A DNA stretch of 64,000 nt from Desulfonatronovibrio magnus (GTDB lineage Bacteria > Desulfobacterota > Desulfovibrionia > Desulfovibrionales > Desulfonatronovibrionaceae), in NCBI RefSeq assembly GCF_000934755.1, contig NZ_KN882175.1, positions 517,736 through 581,735 on the forward strand, given 5' to 3'. The notes below the pieces were generated by a model. It searched no databases and had not been told where the DNA came from. It saw only the letters and a program-made list of their open reading frames with translations. Each line of letters starts with the position of its first letter. Positions within the stretch are counted from its first letter, which is position 1. Positions 974-56,741 of this stretch are shown here, in pieces. The position numbers and the translations under genes are program-made.

Positions 974-1159
974 GTATCTATTGCGCTTCTATGGAAAGCG
1001 ATGGAAAGCGGGGACAGGCACTCCGGGACCCACTTGAGCATCATTTTGTGTTTAAAACAATTTTTGGGACAAGTGGGTTCCGGAAGAGCCAGCCCCCCTC
1101 CGGGCTTTATGCCTCCGGGCAGGAAGCCATGCCACAAGCAAAGCGCTAATCAGATACGA
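974..1159. repeat. R1 structured repeat, copy 1
   Basis: This element of about 186 bp has near-inverted ends, GTATCTATTGCGC on the left and GCGCTAATCAGATAC on the right. Its arms at 1023-1036 and 1070-1083 pair over 14 positions with one G-T wobble. Flanking GGGGAC and GCCCC segments extend the stem with mismatches. A 10-bp stretch (ATGGAAAGCG) is duplicated at 991-1010. It carries the 31-bp module at 1097-1127. It ends about 20 bp before tRNA-Pro, so the tRNA promoter must overlap it. Confidence 0.8.
1097..1127 (+). repeat. 31-bp GC-rich module inside R1 copy 1
   Basis: The module begins CCTCCGGGC, repeats GCCTCCGGGC internally and ends CAGGAAGC. R1 copy 4 (56590-56741) lacks it and joins the two flanks directly, so it behaves as a discrete insertion. 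Confidence 0.7.
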
Positions 1160-1179
1160 TATATTTATTTTTATCAAGT

Positions 1180-16647: not shown

Positions 16648-16706
16648 GCAAATGTCAAACCCTGACTGTCTGGTTTGGTTGAAATAGGATCATAGGTACT
16701 TAGAAG

Positions 16707-17011
16707 CTCCTCACCCGGGCGGACTGGGACCGTACTTGTGAGTAAGTTTAAGACTCTGTCACTTTTCTGGAAATTGGGACAGTCCCCGCGAGGTACTATA
16801 AAAAAGTAATGATACTGCATTGGTTCCTGGAAAAAATTTGCTTAAATGAAAAAATTTACACAGCGAGGGACAGTCCCTGTGCCAAGCGTAAAGCTCTCAT
16901 CTTTGACGGAATTTTTCAGGCAAATGTGCATCATTCATAAGCAAAAATCGTAAAACATGAAAATTGTAACCGTCTGATTTTATTAGCAAAAAGATTGTAG
17001 TTACTTGTAAG
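16707..17011 (+). repeat. Modular repeat unit A1
   Basis: The unit of about 305 bp starts CTCCTCACCCGGGCGG and ends AGTTACTTGTAAG. Its cargo includes two GGGACAGTCCC palindromes and is nearly identical to units B (19806) and D1 (30098). A diverged end motif (TAGGTACTTAGAAG) precedes it, so it stands in a head-to-tail chain. No credible gene lies inside; a minus-strand ORF shared by the copies is a by-product of the repeat. Confidence 0.8.
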
Positions 17012-17419
17012 CTCCTCACCCGGGCGGCATGGGACCAAACATGTGAGTAACTGTCTTTAAAGTGGAGCCTGCATCCTGCAGGCTATTTAATTCCAGGCGG
17101 CTGGAAGCCGCCTCCACCTTGAAGAACAGTCCCATATTTATGCCCCTCGTTTTCAGGCTCCAGCCTGGGGGCGTTTTTCTCTTGCGGCTCCAGCCGCTTC
17201 TTAAAATGTTGCTGGAGCTACAAAAAAAGAGGTGTAATAGCCTCAAAACGTTAGAGATTGCCGCGCTCGAAGACTCGCTCGCAATGACACCTGAGCTGTC
17301 AGGAATGTAGTTGCTGAAAACCTGTCACCCTCGAGGGAGCCTGAGCGACTGAAGCAATCTGTATGGTAAAACCATAATACTCTGATTTTATTAGCAAAAC
17401 GATTCCAGTTACTTAGAAG
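17012..17419 (+). repeat. Modular repeat unit A2 (composite cargo)
   Basis: It begins immediately after A1 with the same CTCCTCACCCGGGCGG end and finishes AGTTACTTAGAAG two bases before the bioB stop codon. Inside, in order, are blocks matching the cargo of unit C2 (CTGCATCCTGCAGGCT palindrome), unit C1 (GCGGCTCCAGCCGC palindrome) and unit D2 (a GATTGCCGCGCTCG segment and a GAAGCAATCTG segment). Confidence 0.8.
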
Positions 17420-19767: not shown

Positions 19768-19805
19768 TACCATCAGCTTTGTCAACAATCTCAGCTACTT
19801 ACCAA

Positions 19806-20111
19806 CGCCTCACCCGGGCGGCCCGGGACCGAACCTGTGAGCAACTTAAAGAGTCTGTCACTTTTCTGAAAATTGGGACAGTCCCCGCGAGGTACTATAA
19901 AAAAGATTGATACTGCATTGGTTCCTGGCAGAAATTGGCTTTAATGACAAAATTTACACAGCGAGGGACAGTCCCTGTGCCAGGCGCAAAGCTCCCATCT
20001 TTGACGGAACTTTGCTGGCAAATGTGCATGAATCATAAGCAAAAATCGTGAAAATGGTAAAAATTATAAACGTCTGATTTTATTAGCAAAACGATTCCAG
20101 TTACTTGTAAG
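19806..20111 (+). repeat. Modular repeat unit B
   Basis: The unit has the same ends and GGGACAGTCCC-containing cargo as A1. A truncated second start (CTCCTCACTCGGGAG at 20112) follows directly, showing a broken head-to-tail neighbour. Confidence 0.78.
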
Positions 20112-20172
20112 CTCCTCACTCGGGAGATCGGGCTGCATGGGTGAAGCGTTCATTATGTTCAAAATCCCATGC

Positions 20173-20284
20173 TTAAACCTTCTACCTTCACCCCTCATTC
20201 TTCTCCCTTCTCCCTTCAGCCTTCTCCCTTCAGCCTTCTCCCTTCAGCCTTCAGCCTTCCACCTTCAGCCTTCTCCCCTCAGCC
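20173..20284. repeat. Degenerate 7-bp tandem array H3
   Basis: About sixteen heptamers alternate between CTTCAGC, CTTCTCC and close variants. The array runs right up to the bioA stop codon at 20285. Confidence 0.82.
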
Positions 20285-21565
20285 TCAAATATTCTCAGCT
20301 GCATAGCGCATCGCTTGTGTCAGCTTAGCCACATCTTCCCTGTCTGCCACATATGGAGGCATTACATAAATCAAATTCAAAAAAGGCCTGATCCACACCC
20401 CAAGCTCAACAAACATCTTCTGAGCCAAAGCTGTATCCACCATGTCCTCCATCTCCAGAACTCCAATAGCACCCAGCACTCTGACTTCCCTGACCCCGGG
20501 CAAATCAATGCAGCTTTCAAGCCCCTTGCGCAGTTCCTGTTCTATAAACATTATCTTTTTTTGCCAGTCACAATCAAGTAAAAGTTGTATACTCGCCACA
20601 GCTGTAGCGCAGGCCAGGGGGTTGCCCATAAAGGTTGGACCATGCATAAATGCTCCGGGAGATCTGCTGGATATAACCTCAGCAATCCGGTCAGTACACA
20701 TGGCAGCGGCAAGGCTCATGTAGCCTCCGGTCAAAGCTTTGCCCACGCACATTATATCCGGAGTAATGCCGGCATGCTCACAGGCAAAGAGTCTGCCTGT
20801 TCTGCCAAAACCTGTGGCGATTTCATCAGCAATAAGCAGAAGATCATATTGTCTGCAAAGCTGCTTAACAGCATTGAGATATTCAGGTGAATAAAATTTC
20901 ATCCCCCCTGCCCCCTGAACAACAGGCTCAAGAATAAATGCAGCAACTTCACGGTGATGCTGCTTTATAAGATCTGCCGCTTTTTCGAGATGTTCAGGCA
21001 GGCAAGGTTCAGCAAAACCGCATCCAGGCGATGGTGCAAAAAAATTCCTGGGCAGAAAGCCTGAAAACAATGTGTGCATTCCAGTTACCGGATCACAGAC
21101 AGACATTGCCCCGAATGTGTCCCCATGATAGCCTCGTTCAAGGCTTATAAACTTTGTTTTTTCAGGTTTACCAGCAGCATGCCAGTATTGCAGCGCCATC
21201 TTCAAGGCAACTTCCACGGAAACCGAGCCTGAATCACAGAAAAAAACCTTTTCCAATCCCTGGGGTGTCAAGTCCCTGAGCATTTGCGCAAGTTCAACAG
21301 CAGGTTCATGGGTAAAGCCGCCAAACATGACATGTGCCATCTTGTGCAGCTGTTTTTGCACAGCCTCATTTAAAACAGGGTGATTATAGCCATGAATAAC
21401 GCACCACCAGGAAGCCATACCATCAACAAGCTCTGTTCCGTCTTGCAGCCTGACCCTGACACCGGAAGCTGATTCCACAGGGTAAACTGGCAGAGGTGAA
21501 GCAAGAGAAGTGTAGGGATGCCAGATATGGCCCCGGTCAAAGTCGAGCATTTGTGTCCAGTTCAT
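20285..21565 (-). CDS. bioA: Adenosylmethionine-8-amino-7-oxononanoate aminotransferase
   Basis: This class III PLP aminotransferase makes DAPA from KAPA with SAM as amino donor. BioA-specific features are HIWHPYTS near residue 13 and MASWWCVIHGYNHP near residue 50, which form the substrate pocket. IADEIATGFGRTG holds the PLP aspartate, and the PLP lysine lies in VGKALTGGYM. Length (426 aa) is normal. No strong ribosome site is visible. Repeats of about 600 bp (H2, B, H3) now separate it from LysM-bioD-bioB. Confidence 0.95.
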   Translation of the reverse strand: MNWTQMLDFDRGHIWHPYTSLASPLPVYPVESASGVRVRLQDGTELVDGMASWWCVIHGYNHPVLNEAVQKQLHKMAHVMFGGFTHEPAVELAQMLRDLTPQGLEKVFFCDSGSVSVEVALKMALQYWHAAGKPEKTKFISLERGYHGDTFGAMSVCDPVTGMHTLFSGFLPRNFFAPSPGCGFAEPCLPEHLEKAADLIKQHHREVAAFILEPVVQGAGGMKFYSPEYLNAVKQLCRQYDLLLIADEIATGFGRTGRLFACEHAGITPDIMCVGKALTGGYMSLAAAMCTDRIAEVISSRSPGAFMHGPTFMGNPLACATAVASIQLLLDCDWQKKIMFIEQELRKGLESCIDLPGVREVRVLGAIGVLEMEDMVDTALAQKMFVELGVWIRPFLNLIYVMPPYVADREDVAKLTQAMRYAAENI

Positions 21566-23198: not shown

Positions 23199-23384
23199 GA
23201 CATTGACTCCTGCACATCTATTTCCGTATACCCTTTATCGCTGAAGCCACACTTTATTTTAAGCTGGAAGAAGACTGGATGTTTTGAGGCTCGCGGCGGG
23301 CACAAGTGCCTGCTCCCGGTAGCCGGGACAATCTTTTTTTAGCCTTGACAAGAGCAATAATGCCCAAGCTCCTAATCCTTCAGC
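23199..23384. other. Gene-free segment with small palindromes
   Basis: This first part of a 524-bp gap shows no gene. GGGCACAAGTGCC and CCCGGTAGCCGGG (23315-23327) are short inverted repeats; neither has a T-tract. Confidence 0.4.
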
Positions 23385-23512
23385 CTCAAGCCTTCAGCCC
23401 TCTGTTTTCTGCCTTCAACTTTCCGCTTTCTACTTTCTACTTTCTACTTTCTGCCTTCCACCTTCAGCCTTCAGCCTTCTCCCTTCTCCCTTCAGCCTTC
23501 AGCCTTCAACAA
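23385..23512. repeat. Degenerate 7-bp tandem array H4
   Basis: About eighteen heptamers mix CTTCAGC, CTTTCTA and CTTCTCC types. It lies 210 bp upstream of the helicase start. A TTGAGAGTTCAG motif occurs at 23632, between array and gene. Confidence 0.78.
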
Positions 23513-23722
23513 CCGCCAGAACGCTTCCACAAAAAACAAGATTCACGCTGCTGCCTGCTCATTTGCTTTATGCAGGCAATCTTGACAGCAAAGAGTACAG
23601 ATGGCAACATAATCGAGATAAAATAATAATCACTTGAGAGTTCAGATTTCGTAGAGTTAAATAAACACTTATAAAATCTTACACCTAACCCCAATACTGT
23701 CAAGACACACCATCACAGTCAC

Positions 23723-28988: not shown

Positions 28989-29218
28989 GCTTATAAGTAA
29001 CTTGAATCATATTGCTAATAAATTCAAATACTTACAAATTTCAGTATATTTGCTCTTGTTCCCAGGCTGGAGCCTGGGAACACCTATTTTTTTGTGGCTC
29101 CAGCCACATTTTGAAGAAGCGGCTGGAGCCGCAAGAGTAAGATGTCCCCAGGCTGGAGCCTGGGAACGAGAGGTGTAAGTTACTCGCAGGTTAGGTCCCG
29201 GTCCGCCCGGGTGAGGAG
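28989..29218 (-). repeat. Modular repeat unit C1
   Basis: Read on the minus strand, it begins CTCCTCACCCGGGCGG (29218 downwards) and ends AGTTACTTATAAG near 28989. Cargo consists of repeated GGCTCCAGCC-type palindromes, including GCGGCTCCAGCCGC. A TTGAGAGTTAGACG motif lies at its end, next to the hypothetical gene. Confidence 0.75.
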
Positions 29219-29376
29219 CTTACAAGTAAATTAAAATGTCCCAATTTTCAAATATGGGACTGTTCTTCAATGTGGAGGCGGCTTCCAGCCGCCTGGGCTT
29301 TAATAGCCTGCAGGATGCAGGCTCCACGTTTGAAGACAGTTACTCACAGGTTCGGTCCCGGGTCGCCCTGGCAAAA
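29219..29376 (-). repeat. Modular repeat unit C2
   Basis: On the minus strand it starts near 29376, three bases after the nitroreductase stop codon, with a diverged start end. It carries the CTGCATCCTGCAGGCT and GGCGGCTGGAAGCCGCC palindromes. It closes with TTTACTTGTAAG, which touches the start of C1. Confidence 0.72.
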
Positions 29377-29985: not shown

Positions 29986-30097
29986 AATTTCCTCCTTAAA
30001 TTCTTTACATGACATCACTCACAACCCATTTATCAGCCTGATTAGTTATCAGCAAAAGGGTTGATAAGAATTATCTTTTCAACTTGAGAGTTAAAAG

Positions 30098-30433
30098 CTC
30101 TTCACCCGGGCGGACCAGGACCGAACGTATGAGTAACTTTACGAGTCTGTCACTTTTCTGGAAATTGGGACAGTCCCCGCGAGGTACTATAAAAAAGATT
30201 GATGCTGCATTGGTTTCTGGAAGAAATTTGCTTTGATGAAAAAATCTACACAGCGAGGGACAGTCCCCCTCCGGGCTGTAAGCCTCCGGGCAGGAAGCTG
30301 TGCCAGGCGCAAAGTTTCCATCTTTGACGGAACTTTTCTGGCAAATGTGCATCAATCATAAGCAAAAATCGTAAAAATGTGATAGCTGTAACTGTCTGAA
30401 TTTATTAGTAAAACAATTATAGCTACTTGTAAG
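30098..30433 (+). repeat. Modular repeat unit D1
   Basis: This unit matches A1 and B along its length except for a 31-bp insertion at 30268-30298. It starts with a slightly changed end (CTCTTCACCCGGGCGG) preceded by a TTGAGAGTTAAAAG motif, and ends ACTTGTAAG. Confidence 0.78.
30268..30298 (+). repeat. 31-bp GC-rich module inside unit D1
   Basis: The module starts CCTCCGGGC, contains GCCTCCGGGC and ends CAGGAAGC, matching the module in R1 copies 1-3. Units A1 and B have GTCCC joined directly to TGTGCC at this point, so the insertion boundaries are visible to the base. Confidence 0.75.
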
Positions 30434-30662
30434 CTCCTCACCAGGGGGACCGGGACCGAACCTGTAAGTAACTAAAAAATCAGCCTTAACACGTTAGAGA
30501 TTGCCGCGCTCGAAGACTCGCTCGCAATGACAGCTGAGCTGTCAGGGATGTAGTTGCTGAAAACCTGTCACCCACGAGGGAGCCTAAGCGACCGAAGCAA
30601 TCTGTATGGCAAAATCATAATACTTTGAATTTATTACATATACGATTGTAGTTACTTAGAAG
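30434..30662 (+). repeat. Modular repeat unit D2
   Basis: It follows D1 head to tail. The cargo is the GATTGCCGCGCTCG / CGCTCGCAATGAC block and the GAAGCAATCTG block, the same as the last third of A2 without its palindromes. It ends AGTTACTTAGAAG. From here to the BCCT gene (30663-30807) I see nothing. Confidence 0.75.
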
Positions 30663-41916: not shown

Positions 41917-41945
41917 AATCCTGCCTTTATTGTAGAAATTATGTC

Positions 41946-42125
41946 TCAGTTTAGCGCTTTGCATGTGGCATGGCTTCCTGCCCGGAGGCATACAGCCCGG
42001 AGGGAGACTGGCTCTTCCTGAACCCGCTTGTCCCAAAAATAAGATATTTTCAGCACAAAATGATGCTCAAGTGGGTCCAGGAGTGCCTGTCCCCTGCTTT
42101 CCTTAAAAGAGCTAAACAGATACGA
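41946..42125. repeat. R1 structured repeat, copy 2
   Basis: This copy is reversed relative to copies 1 and 4. The left end is CAGTTTAGCGCTTTGCATG and the right end GAGCTAAACAGATACG. The hairpin arms, CTGAACCCGCTTG and CAAGTGGGTCCAG, pair with one mismatch and one wobble. The 31-bp module lies at 41973-42003. It sits between hslU and argB. Confidence 0.78.
41973..42003 (-). repeat. 31-bp GC-rich module inside R1 copy 2
   Basis: The reverse-complement form runs from GCTTCCTGCCCGGAGGC to CCCGGAGG. It occupies the same relative site as in copy 1. Confidence 0.7.
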
Positions 42126-50265: not shown

Positions 50266-50343
50266 ATACTGAAGGTTGATAGGCTGTAACTAAAAAAACT
50301 CAAGACATTTTTTAAATCAGAAATACCAATGTGCAATGCCGTG

Positions 50344-50412
50344 AGCCTTCAGCCTTCAGCCTTCAGCCTTCAGTCTTCAGCCTTCAGTCTTTATGCTTCA
50401 GCCTTTATTCTT
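50344..50412. repeat. Degenerate 7-bp tandem array H6
   Basis: About nine heptamers, mostly exact CTTCAGC copies with some CTTCAGT, lie between the convergent uraA and permease genes and almost touch the permease stop codon at 50419. Confidence 0.82.
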
Positions 50413-50418
50413 GAACGT

Positions 50419-51507
50419 TCAATCTGCGGCTTCCTCATCAGCCAGATCATTTAAATCTGCATGGACCTGTTTTGGCCAGGCGCGGATAACAGCCTGAACC
50501 AGGGTTGCAAGAGGTATGGCAAAAAAGATGCCCCAGAATCCCCACAGACCTCCAAACACAAGGATTGCAGCAATTACACCTACAGGATGAATATCCACTA
50601 CCTCAGCCAGAAGAAGAGGGGCCAGAACATTGCCATCCAGCATCTGAATAATGGCATAAACAATAAGAACCCAGACAAATTCTGAACCCAGCCCCCATTG
50701 AAAATACGCCACCAGGGCAACTGGTACCGTAGCCACTGCAGCCCCCACATAGGGTATGAGCACTGAAAAGCCCACTATGGCTCCAAGAAGAACAGCATAC
50801 TGTAGTTTTAAAATGGTAAATATCAGGTAAGTACAGATCCAGACAATAATAATTTCCCAGGTTTTGCCTCTTATATAGTTGGCAATCTGCATGTTGACGT
50901 CTTCCCACACCTGTACAGCAAGGGAGCGGTCTCTCGGCAGAAATGAAGAAAACCATTCCAGAATTTTTTCTTTATCTTTGAGAAAGAAAAATACCAGCAA
51001 AGGCACAATAACTAAGTAAACCAGCAATGTGATCAGCCCCATCACTGAAGCAACCGATATAGACAATATGTTTTGAGCCAGTTTACCAACTTCGCCTCTG
51101 ATGACTGAAAAAATTTCAAATACCTGTTCTTCCGAAATAAACTTGGGATAATGTTCTGGAAGCTGAAGTAAGAGGTTCTGAGCTTCTGCTATCATCGAGG
51201 GCAACTGCTGCACCAGCTGGGTGATTTGCTTGGTCAGCATGGGAACCAGCCAGAAAAAGGTAAAAAACAGGATCATTACAAAAAACAAAAAAGTAATGAT
51301 GACTGCAAGTAATTGCGGAGCTCCCCTTTTTGTGAACTGCTTGACAACGCCATCCAGCAGGTAGGCAATTATCAGTCCCGCAAAAAAAGGAACGAGCATC
51401 TTGCCCAAAAAATAAATCACTGCAAATCCTGAAAGCAGCAGGACAAGCAGTATAACTACTTGCGGGTTGTTAAACTGGTTTTCAAACCAATTTTTGACTA
51501 ATTGCAT
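50419..51507 (-). CDS. AI-2E family transporter (PerM/DUF20)
   Basis: The 362-residue protein has the family's hydrophobic pattern: two helices at the N-terminus (12-45), one at about 60-85, a soluble stretch, and four or five C-terminal helices with GFSVLIPYVGAAVATVPVA and DGNVLAPLLLAEVVDIHP. Family members export small molecules or act as sodium antiporters, so the autoinducer name is no guide to function. It is transcribed alone. Confidence 0.88.
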   Translation of the reverse strand: MQLVKNWFENQFNNPQVVILLVLLLSGFAVIYFLGKMLVPFFAGLIIAYLLDGVVKQFTKRGAPQLLAVIITFLFFVMILFFTFFWLVPMLTKQITQLVQQLPSMIAEAQNLLLQLPEHYPKFISEEQVFEIFSVIRGEVGKLAQNILSISVASVMGLITLLVYLVIVPLLVFFFLKDKEKILEWFSSFLPRDRSLAVQVWEDVNMQIANYIRGKTWEIIIVWICTYLIFTILKLQYAVLLGAIVGFSVLIPYVGAAVATVPVALVAYFQWGLGSEFVWVLIVYAIIQMLDGNVLAPLLLAEVVDIHPVGVIAAILVFGGLWGFWGIFFAIPLATLVQAVIRAWPKQVHADLNDLADEEAAD

Positions 51508-51599
51508 AAATCCCCCAATACCGTATCAGCTTTGCTCTTTTGAGAAAACATAAGGCAGACATTCCGGCACTGAACTTTTACAAAATATCACAATTCGTA

Positions 51600-51768
51600 A
51601 CAGTTTAGCCATTTGCATGTGGCACGGCTTCCTGCCCGGAGGCATACAGCCCGGAGGGGGACTGGCTCTCCCAGCCCTTGTTTTATTAAGTCTGTGTTTT
51701 ACATCAACAAAAAACAAGGGCTGGGGTGCCTGTCCCCTGCTTACCTTAGAAAAGGGCTAAACTATTAC
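51600..51768. repeat. R1 structured repeat, copy 3 (changed hairpin arms)
   Basis: The orientation is as in copy 2. Outer sequences and the 31-bp module (51627-51657) match the other copies, but the inner arms are CCAGCCCTTGTTTT (51671-51684) and AAAACAAGGGCTGG (51711-51724), a perfect 14-bp stem with different sequence. It ends 22 bp before zupT. Confidence 0.78.
51627..51657 (-). repeat. 31-bp GC-rich module inside R1 copy 3
   Basis: The module is the same sequence as in copy 2 and sits at the same position relative to the GACTGGCTCT segment. Confidence 0.7.
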
Positions 51769-56589: not shown

Positions 56590-56741
56590 CCTGTTTATCG
56601 CTTTTATGGAAAGCAGGGGACAGGCACTCCGGGACCCACTTGAGCATCAATTTGTGCTCAAAATGACTCATTTTTTGGGCAAGTGGGTCCCGGAAGAGCC
56701 AGTCCCCATGCCACAACATCCAAAGCGCTAAACATATTCGA
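56590..56741. repeat. R1 structured repeat, copy 4 (without the 31-bp module)
   Basis: This shortest copy lies between ftsA and ftsZ. Arms CCGGGACCCACTTG (56629-56642) and CAAGTGGGTCCCGG (56680-56693) pair perfectly over 14 bp. The outer end is AAAGCGCTAAACATATTCG. CAGTCCCC is joined directly to ATGCCAC where other copies hold the module. The remaining 56372-56589 shows nothing else clear. Confidence 0.8.

Follow-up and report, generated by a model that had tools for sequence, protein, structure and literature searches.

How did a single repeat unit come to hold, between one pair of ends, three blocks that nearby units carry singly? The question is raised by unit A2, which lies in a 64,000-nucleotide stretch of DNA (the window; G000:C114:517736-581735) within a 4.81-Mb draft genome. 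In the initial annotation, A2 was described as a composite of the blocks of units C2, C1 and D2, and as direct evidence for gain or loss of cargo between fixed ends.

Composition and setting of unit A2

The exact edges of A2 are 17009-17416, a small shift from the annotated 17012-17419. Its parts are as follows.

17009..17416, + strand: unit A2, a complete E-B1-B2-B3-T composite of 408 bp
17009..17052, + strand: E, the fixed left end (nhmmer E match), with a CCYGG..CCRGG hairpin and terminating in GAGTAACT
17053..17139, + strand: B1 block, with 100% identity over 87 bp to four other units
17062-17117, + strand: B1 core, a REPIN-like inverted hairpin pair, GTGGAG-[CCTGCATCCTGCAGG]...[GCGGCTGGAAGCCGC]-CTCCAC (DNA fold z -4.8)
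17140..17230, + strand: B2 block, truncated, without its 3' CCCAGGCTGGAGCCTGGGAACAAGAG repeat
17231..17369, + strand: B3 block, GATTGC...GCAATC, with its own leader AATAGCC
17370..17416, + strand: T, the fixed right end (...TTTTATTAGCAAAACGATTCCAGTTACTTAG), followed by target AAG

The other units in the window are listed below.

16704..17008, + strand: A1, an E-A-T unit directly upstream of A2 and head-to-tail with it
19803..20108, + strand: a further E-A-T unit
28993..29221, - strand: C1, an E-B2-T unit with a complete B2 (extra 3' palindrome) and a B2-specific tail
29229..29371, - strand: C2, a truncated E-B1 unit with a partial E and no T
30095..30430, + strand: D1, an E-A-T unit whose A block carries the P insert
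30431..30659, + strand: D2, an E-B3-T unit, head-to-tail after D1

When A2, C2, C1, D2 and A1 were aligned in the orientation of E, no block differed in order or strand, and the concatenation-like layout therefore stands. The B1 block of A2 matched C2 (94% over 81 bp), B2 matched C1 (86% over 69 bp), and B3 together with T matched D2 (91% over 181 bp). D2 matches A2 at E and across B3-T and, as had been noted, lacks B1 and B2. Chance similarity is excluded by 116 partial matches when the genome was searched with the whole unit, and by 422 genome-wide matches of the E core (up to 3 mismatches) against none for the reversed control pattern.

A2 was nevertheless not put together from the C2, C1 and D2 of the window itself. 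C2 and C1 are not its direct donors, because C2 is truncated and A2 carries only the first two thirds of the B2 of C1. Moreover, B2-B3 is an older composite present in 25 copies, and the B1 of A2 (87 bp, hairpin flanks included) is identical in units L126, L020, L010 and C114:163607. In the three of these B1-identical units that were compared directly, E differs from that of A2 at 5-6 of 45 positions and B1 at 0 of 87. The best genome-wide match to the B2-B3 of A2 is a unit without B1 (L012, 92%), and 77 bp of B2 are identical in L011, a unit with a different type of B3 head. The matches to B1, B2 and B2-B3 thus point to different units, suggesting that A2 is a mosaic, an older B2-B3 composite that acquired B1 at its E side.

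A2 is flanked by converging genes, a BioC-like methyltransferase (below the family cut-off) on the left and bioB on the right. Neither E nor T was found in the bioB neighbourhoods of 11 relatives. Therefore, the A2 site is private to the lineage among the genomes examined, which is not a demonstration of stepwise gain.

Placement, block combinations and block order

Profile searches of contig C114 (797 kb) detected 108 E and 97 T hits. T follows E on the same strand, and together they make up 68 strong arrays, each with one to four head-to-tail units. Units were solitary or in head-to-tail arrays of 2-4 and nearly always intergenic; on C114, despite its coding share of 84%, only one of the 68 arrays overlapped an ORF longer than 600 bp. 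The arrays showed no orientation bias relative to flanking genes (++ 17, -- 20, C114) and a weak replication-strand bias (27:41, one contig). In a terminator scan, A2 had 4 hairpins compared with 0.9 in shuffles. A terminator or regulator role was rejected: hairpins exceed shuffles, yet array orientation is unbiased relative to neighbouring genes. Rfam gave no family at gathering score, and the miRNA and snoRNA matches were far under the cut-off. A tRNA origin of E, considered for its GGTTCG-like letters, was also discarded, the window's only tRNA being a tRNA-Pro (1180-1256).

For the block survey we parsed 1.2 Mb, comprising the whole of C114 and regions matching A2 or E, which held 221 E units; by this choice, composites are over-represented outside C114, while the order rule is independent of sampling. 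The units carried A (65), B3 (36), B1-A (30), B2-B3 (25), B1 (15), B2-T2 (8), B2 (7), B1-B2-B3 (4), T2 (4) or B1-A-B3 (3). The remaining combinations, including B1-A-B2-B3, occurred once each, giving about 18 overall, and no recognised block was found in 15 units. The annotation had called for more genomic copies to be examined; these revealed many combinations and one constant order. Cargo change between fixed ends is thus upheld, but the term "direct evidence", which would call for strains that differ by one block at a single locus, was too strong.

The order B1 < A < B2 < B3/T2 was obeyed by 91 of the 93 steps within units (91 canonical to 1 reverse), and the two off-order steps probably arose in parsing, where a unit boundary was missed. 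From one unit to its neighbour, these classes followed one another in canonical order 20 times, in reverse 33 times and as the same class 16 times. The strict order, unshared by neighbouring units, is given neither by random fusion nor by random nested insertion.

Every cargo class begins at a common E joint, immediately after GAGTAACT. Blocks A, B3 and Q were almost confined to E-T frames (56/57, 37/37 and 7/7), and B1 and T2 occurred outside such frames too. Over all units, cargo was less diverged than E for B1 (0.056 vs 0.146), P, B2, B3 and T2, but not for A, and cargo distance hardly correlated with E distance. A difference in constraint between cargo and E could explain part of this. Among the four main cargo blocks, B1 showed the lowest divergence, decoupled from that of E, and B2 was more diverged than B3.

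The P insert is a 31-bp sequence (CCTCCGGGCTGTAAGCCTCCGGGCAGGAAGC) found at the same GGGACAGTCCCC-like position both in block A (window 30256-30314) and in the X family (copies e.g. at 1085-1143), two families that are otherwise unrelated. It is almost invariant within E-T units (divergence 0.008).

Insertion site and origin of the composites

The first unit of an array has TT(A)N upstream and begins with AAGC, and the last ends in AGTTACTT(GT or AG), with AAG as the next letters in 95% of cases. The joints inside arrays read GTTACTT(GT/AG)^AAGCTCC in 35 cases (^ marks a junction). The left terminus of units is AAGCTCCTCACC and the right terminus AGTTACTTRN; there are no terminal inverted repeats, and the sole likeness between the ends is an internal 8-nt match of GAGTAACT to the T end. 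Empty sites in the X family read CCTTAAAAGCGCTAAACAG, i.e. CCTTAA^AAGCGCTAAACAG, and filled sites CCTTAA^AAGCTCC...ACTTGT^AAGCGCTAAACAG, E...T having entered between CCTTAA and AAGCGCTAAACAG. Array flanks and filled X sites both place insertion at TTNN^AAGC without target duplication. A duplication was rejected from the array flanks, which mismatch where left and right deviate. AAGC is assignable to element or target, so that the exact cut is ambiguous within these four letters. The fixed edges and the site preference are observed directly; E...T is probably mobile as a unit.

The X family itself is a second repeat of about 150 bp (window 1000-1160, 41940-42120, 51595-51760 and 56590-56740), with inverted ends like GTATCTGTTTAGCGCTTT and palindromes GGGGACAGGCACTCC/CCAGTCCCC. 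E-T arrays are inserted in its copies at CCTTAA^AAGC at several loci.

The middle pair of the E hairpin switches from C-G to T-A jointly in 13 of 110 distinct copies, and its mutual information was reached by 0 of 2000 shuffles. This concerns one pair only; E folds no more strongly than shuffles (z -0.65), and T does not fold (z 0.34). The covarying pair fits folded-strand recognition or copying under a paired constraint.

The initial annotation left gain and loss undecided, and we favour gain by joining. Single-block A units end with a tail, Ab (...AAAAATCGTAAAAATGTGAAAACTGTAA), and single-block B2 units with AGCAAATATACTGAAATTTG (B2b). In composites, the Ab and B2b tails are shortened or missing for all blocks except the last. 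Deletion of blocks from a composite cannot create such class-specific tails, and joining is therefore simpler than loss. Five loci with B1-E'-B1 and L010 with B1-E'-B2-B3 retain pieces of a second E inside the composite, which fusion of adjacent units across their T/E joint would leave behind. All four A-to-B2 joints differ, and A is truncated at them. The independence of all B1-B2 joints was not accepted: A2 and L031 share one, and the others may be later small indels. In relatives, each E-T frame holds one block, which is B3 or T2 in G002, G004 and G005, B2 in G006 and B1 in G009. The query was itself a composite, so that any composites in these genomes would have come out with the best scores. 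Among the relatives, E is split after GGGACC in G004 (L108/L044) by about 90 bp of unrelated palindromic sequence. In the more distant G017 (L119, L049), E is followed by other cargo, GAATAAGGAAATGATCATT...ACCCCTAACCCC, and further cargo classes therefore exist.

We consider it fairly probable that the A2 family is a non-coding E...T mobile repeat whose composites arise by joining. The family is probably non-autonomous and has the fixed ends E and T. The flanks and the empty and filled sites show that units enter intergenic TTNN^AAGC, often beside one another, and so build head-to-tail arrays. Tails, joints and E relics suggest that a join retains the E and cargo of the left unit and the cargo and T of the right unit, and that composites are subsequently copied as units. 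A2 may descend from a B2-B3 unit that had already been amplified and then gained B1 at its E side, either by a join with a B1-headed unit or by addition of B1. The putative mover is probably a single-strand or site-specific transposase supplied in trans. In 1.2 Mb we saw no E...T unit that encloses a transposase gene, and the 10 Y1_Tnp matches all lay outside E-T units, about a quarter of the genome having been scanned for long E...T pairs; this counts against the joining model. A Y1 gene near a unit (L095) was rejected as an autonomous copy since it lies outside the unit and is broken. The block order is a second difficulty, as fusion of random neighbours predicts reverse composites, against the single one within units and the 20:33 ratio between neighbours. 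Low divergence of cargo relative to E, moreover, could partly reflect stronger constraint on the cargo.

The block order is better accommodated if new palindromes insert right after E, at GAGTAACT^, so that the order from E to T is the order of arrival, with B1 newest and B3/T2 oldest. That every cargo abuts GAGTAACT, that B1 has the lowest divergence of the four main blocks and is decoupled from E, and that B1-like elements exist outside frames and flank a RAYT gene all agree with this reading. It is unlikely, however, although worth keeping in view: the A-to-B2 joints are variable with A truncated there, partial E relics between blocks require a second E, an empty GAGTAACTGTCAC site for B1 was looked for and none was found, and B2 is more diverged than B3, which does not clearly fit the age order. 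We give still less weight to a related idea, in which E-T units would be cassettes moved by a dedicated enzyme via a circle (T/E joint ACTTGTAAGCTCC x TTNN^AAGC), with cargo always added on the E side; each unit would then be a time-ordered record of invading repeat families.

Loss of different blocks from a full-length B1-A-B2-B3 ancestor would explain the constant order, and one such unit exists (L020), but this reading, already disfavoured, is very improbable because the single-block 3' tails are missing from the longest composites and relatives carry single blocks only. Equally hard to credit is a history in which REP/REPIN elements nested in the ordinary way and copies then exchanged sequence by homologous recombination or gene conversion, E and T being merely the commonest flanks and no mobile unit: B1 and T2 outside frames and cargo more uniform than E would suit it, against the near confinement of A, B3 and Q to E-T frames and the X sites, where E...T appears to have arrived whole.

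Comparison with known repeats

The E-T family extends a known type of organisation, that of composite bacterial repeats, rather than forming a system of a new kind. In mode of organisation only, it resembles the BOX elements of Streptococcus, which consist of boxA-[boxB]n-boxC, with boxE/F and boxD in S. suis (PMC3049150). Both are short, interspersed, intergenic and non-coding, hundreds of bp in length, with strong secondary structure (PMC3049150), fixed end modules and a variable interior. BOX varies mainly the copy number of one internal module, whereas E-T units draw on five or more unrelated palindromic blocks, always ordered alike, and stand head-to-tail as whole units; host and sequence also differ.

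The insertion of E-T, after TTNN, without duplication, with a left hairpin and no coding capacity, works like that of IS200/IS605-derived elements such as the PATEs of Haloquadratum (PMC3119063). PATEs likewise lack terminal inverted repeats, target duplications and a transposase gene, have a palindrome near an end and host other small repeats (PMC3119063). Unlike PATEs, E-T units have a palindrome near the left end only, T being unfolded, and modular cargo, and no IS605-type relative was found. Membership of the IS200/IS605-derived elements is not claimed, since T has no hairpin and no full-length partner was present among the 10 Y1_Tnp matches.

REP dimers within larger palindromes are known (PMC3116915, PMC3733652). 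B1 is similar to a REPIN in its two inverted hairpins (GTGGAG-hairpin...hairpin-CTCCAC, fold z -4.8), and a RAYT-type Y1_Tnp gene in L092 is flanked on both sides by B1-like copies of the GTGGAGCCTGCTTCCAGCAGGC type. The tag of B1 is GTGG, not GTAG/CGTC; GTGG has been reported as a variant in one GTAG family (PMC3733652). Most B1 copies, unlike REPINs, are locked within E-T frames, and the E-T unit itself is no REP doublet. In L092 (1-2889, - strand), the RAYT-like Y1 domain and the B1-like repeats lie apparently in frame inside a DNA-methylase-like ORF of more than 960 aa.

The small noncoding repeats of Deinococcus radiodurans, compared by their description only, are also many, intergenic and called mosaic, and the part of that account considered here mentions no rule of fixed ends and fixed order (PMC1978522). 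Integron cassettes share the head-to-tail arrays and a joint that regenerates the insertion site. An integron cassette/attC identity was rejected, as the joint GTTACTT(GT/AG)AAGC in 35 joints has no GTTRRRY core; E-T units, unlike cassettes, contain no ORF and are spread over more than 60 places on one contig.

Descriptions of composite bacterial repeats usually come after the event. In this case, a single genome offers more than 400 E ends, about 18 combinations, joint scars, and empty and filled sites, together with single-block relatives in sister species, and the origin of such repeats thereby becomes countable and testable.

Degenerate 7-bp tandem arrays (CCTTCAG/CCTTCTC) also lie beside gene ends in the window, at 20160-20300, 23360-23540 and 50330-50430.
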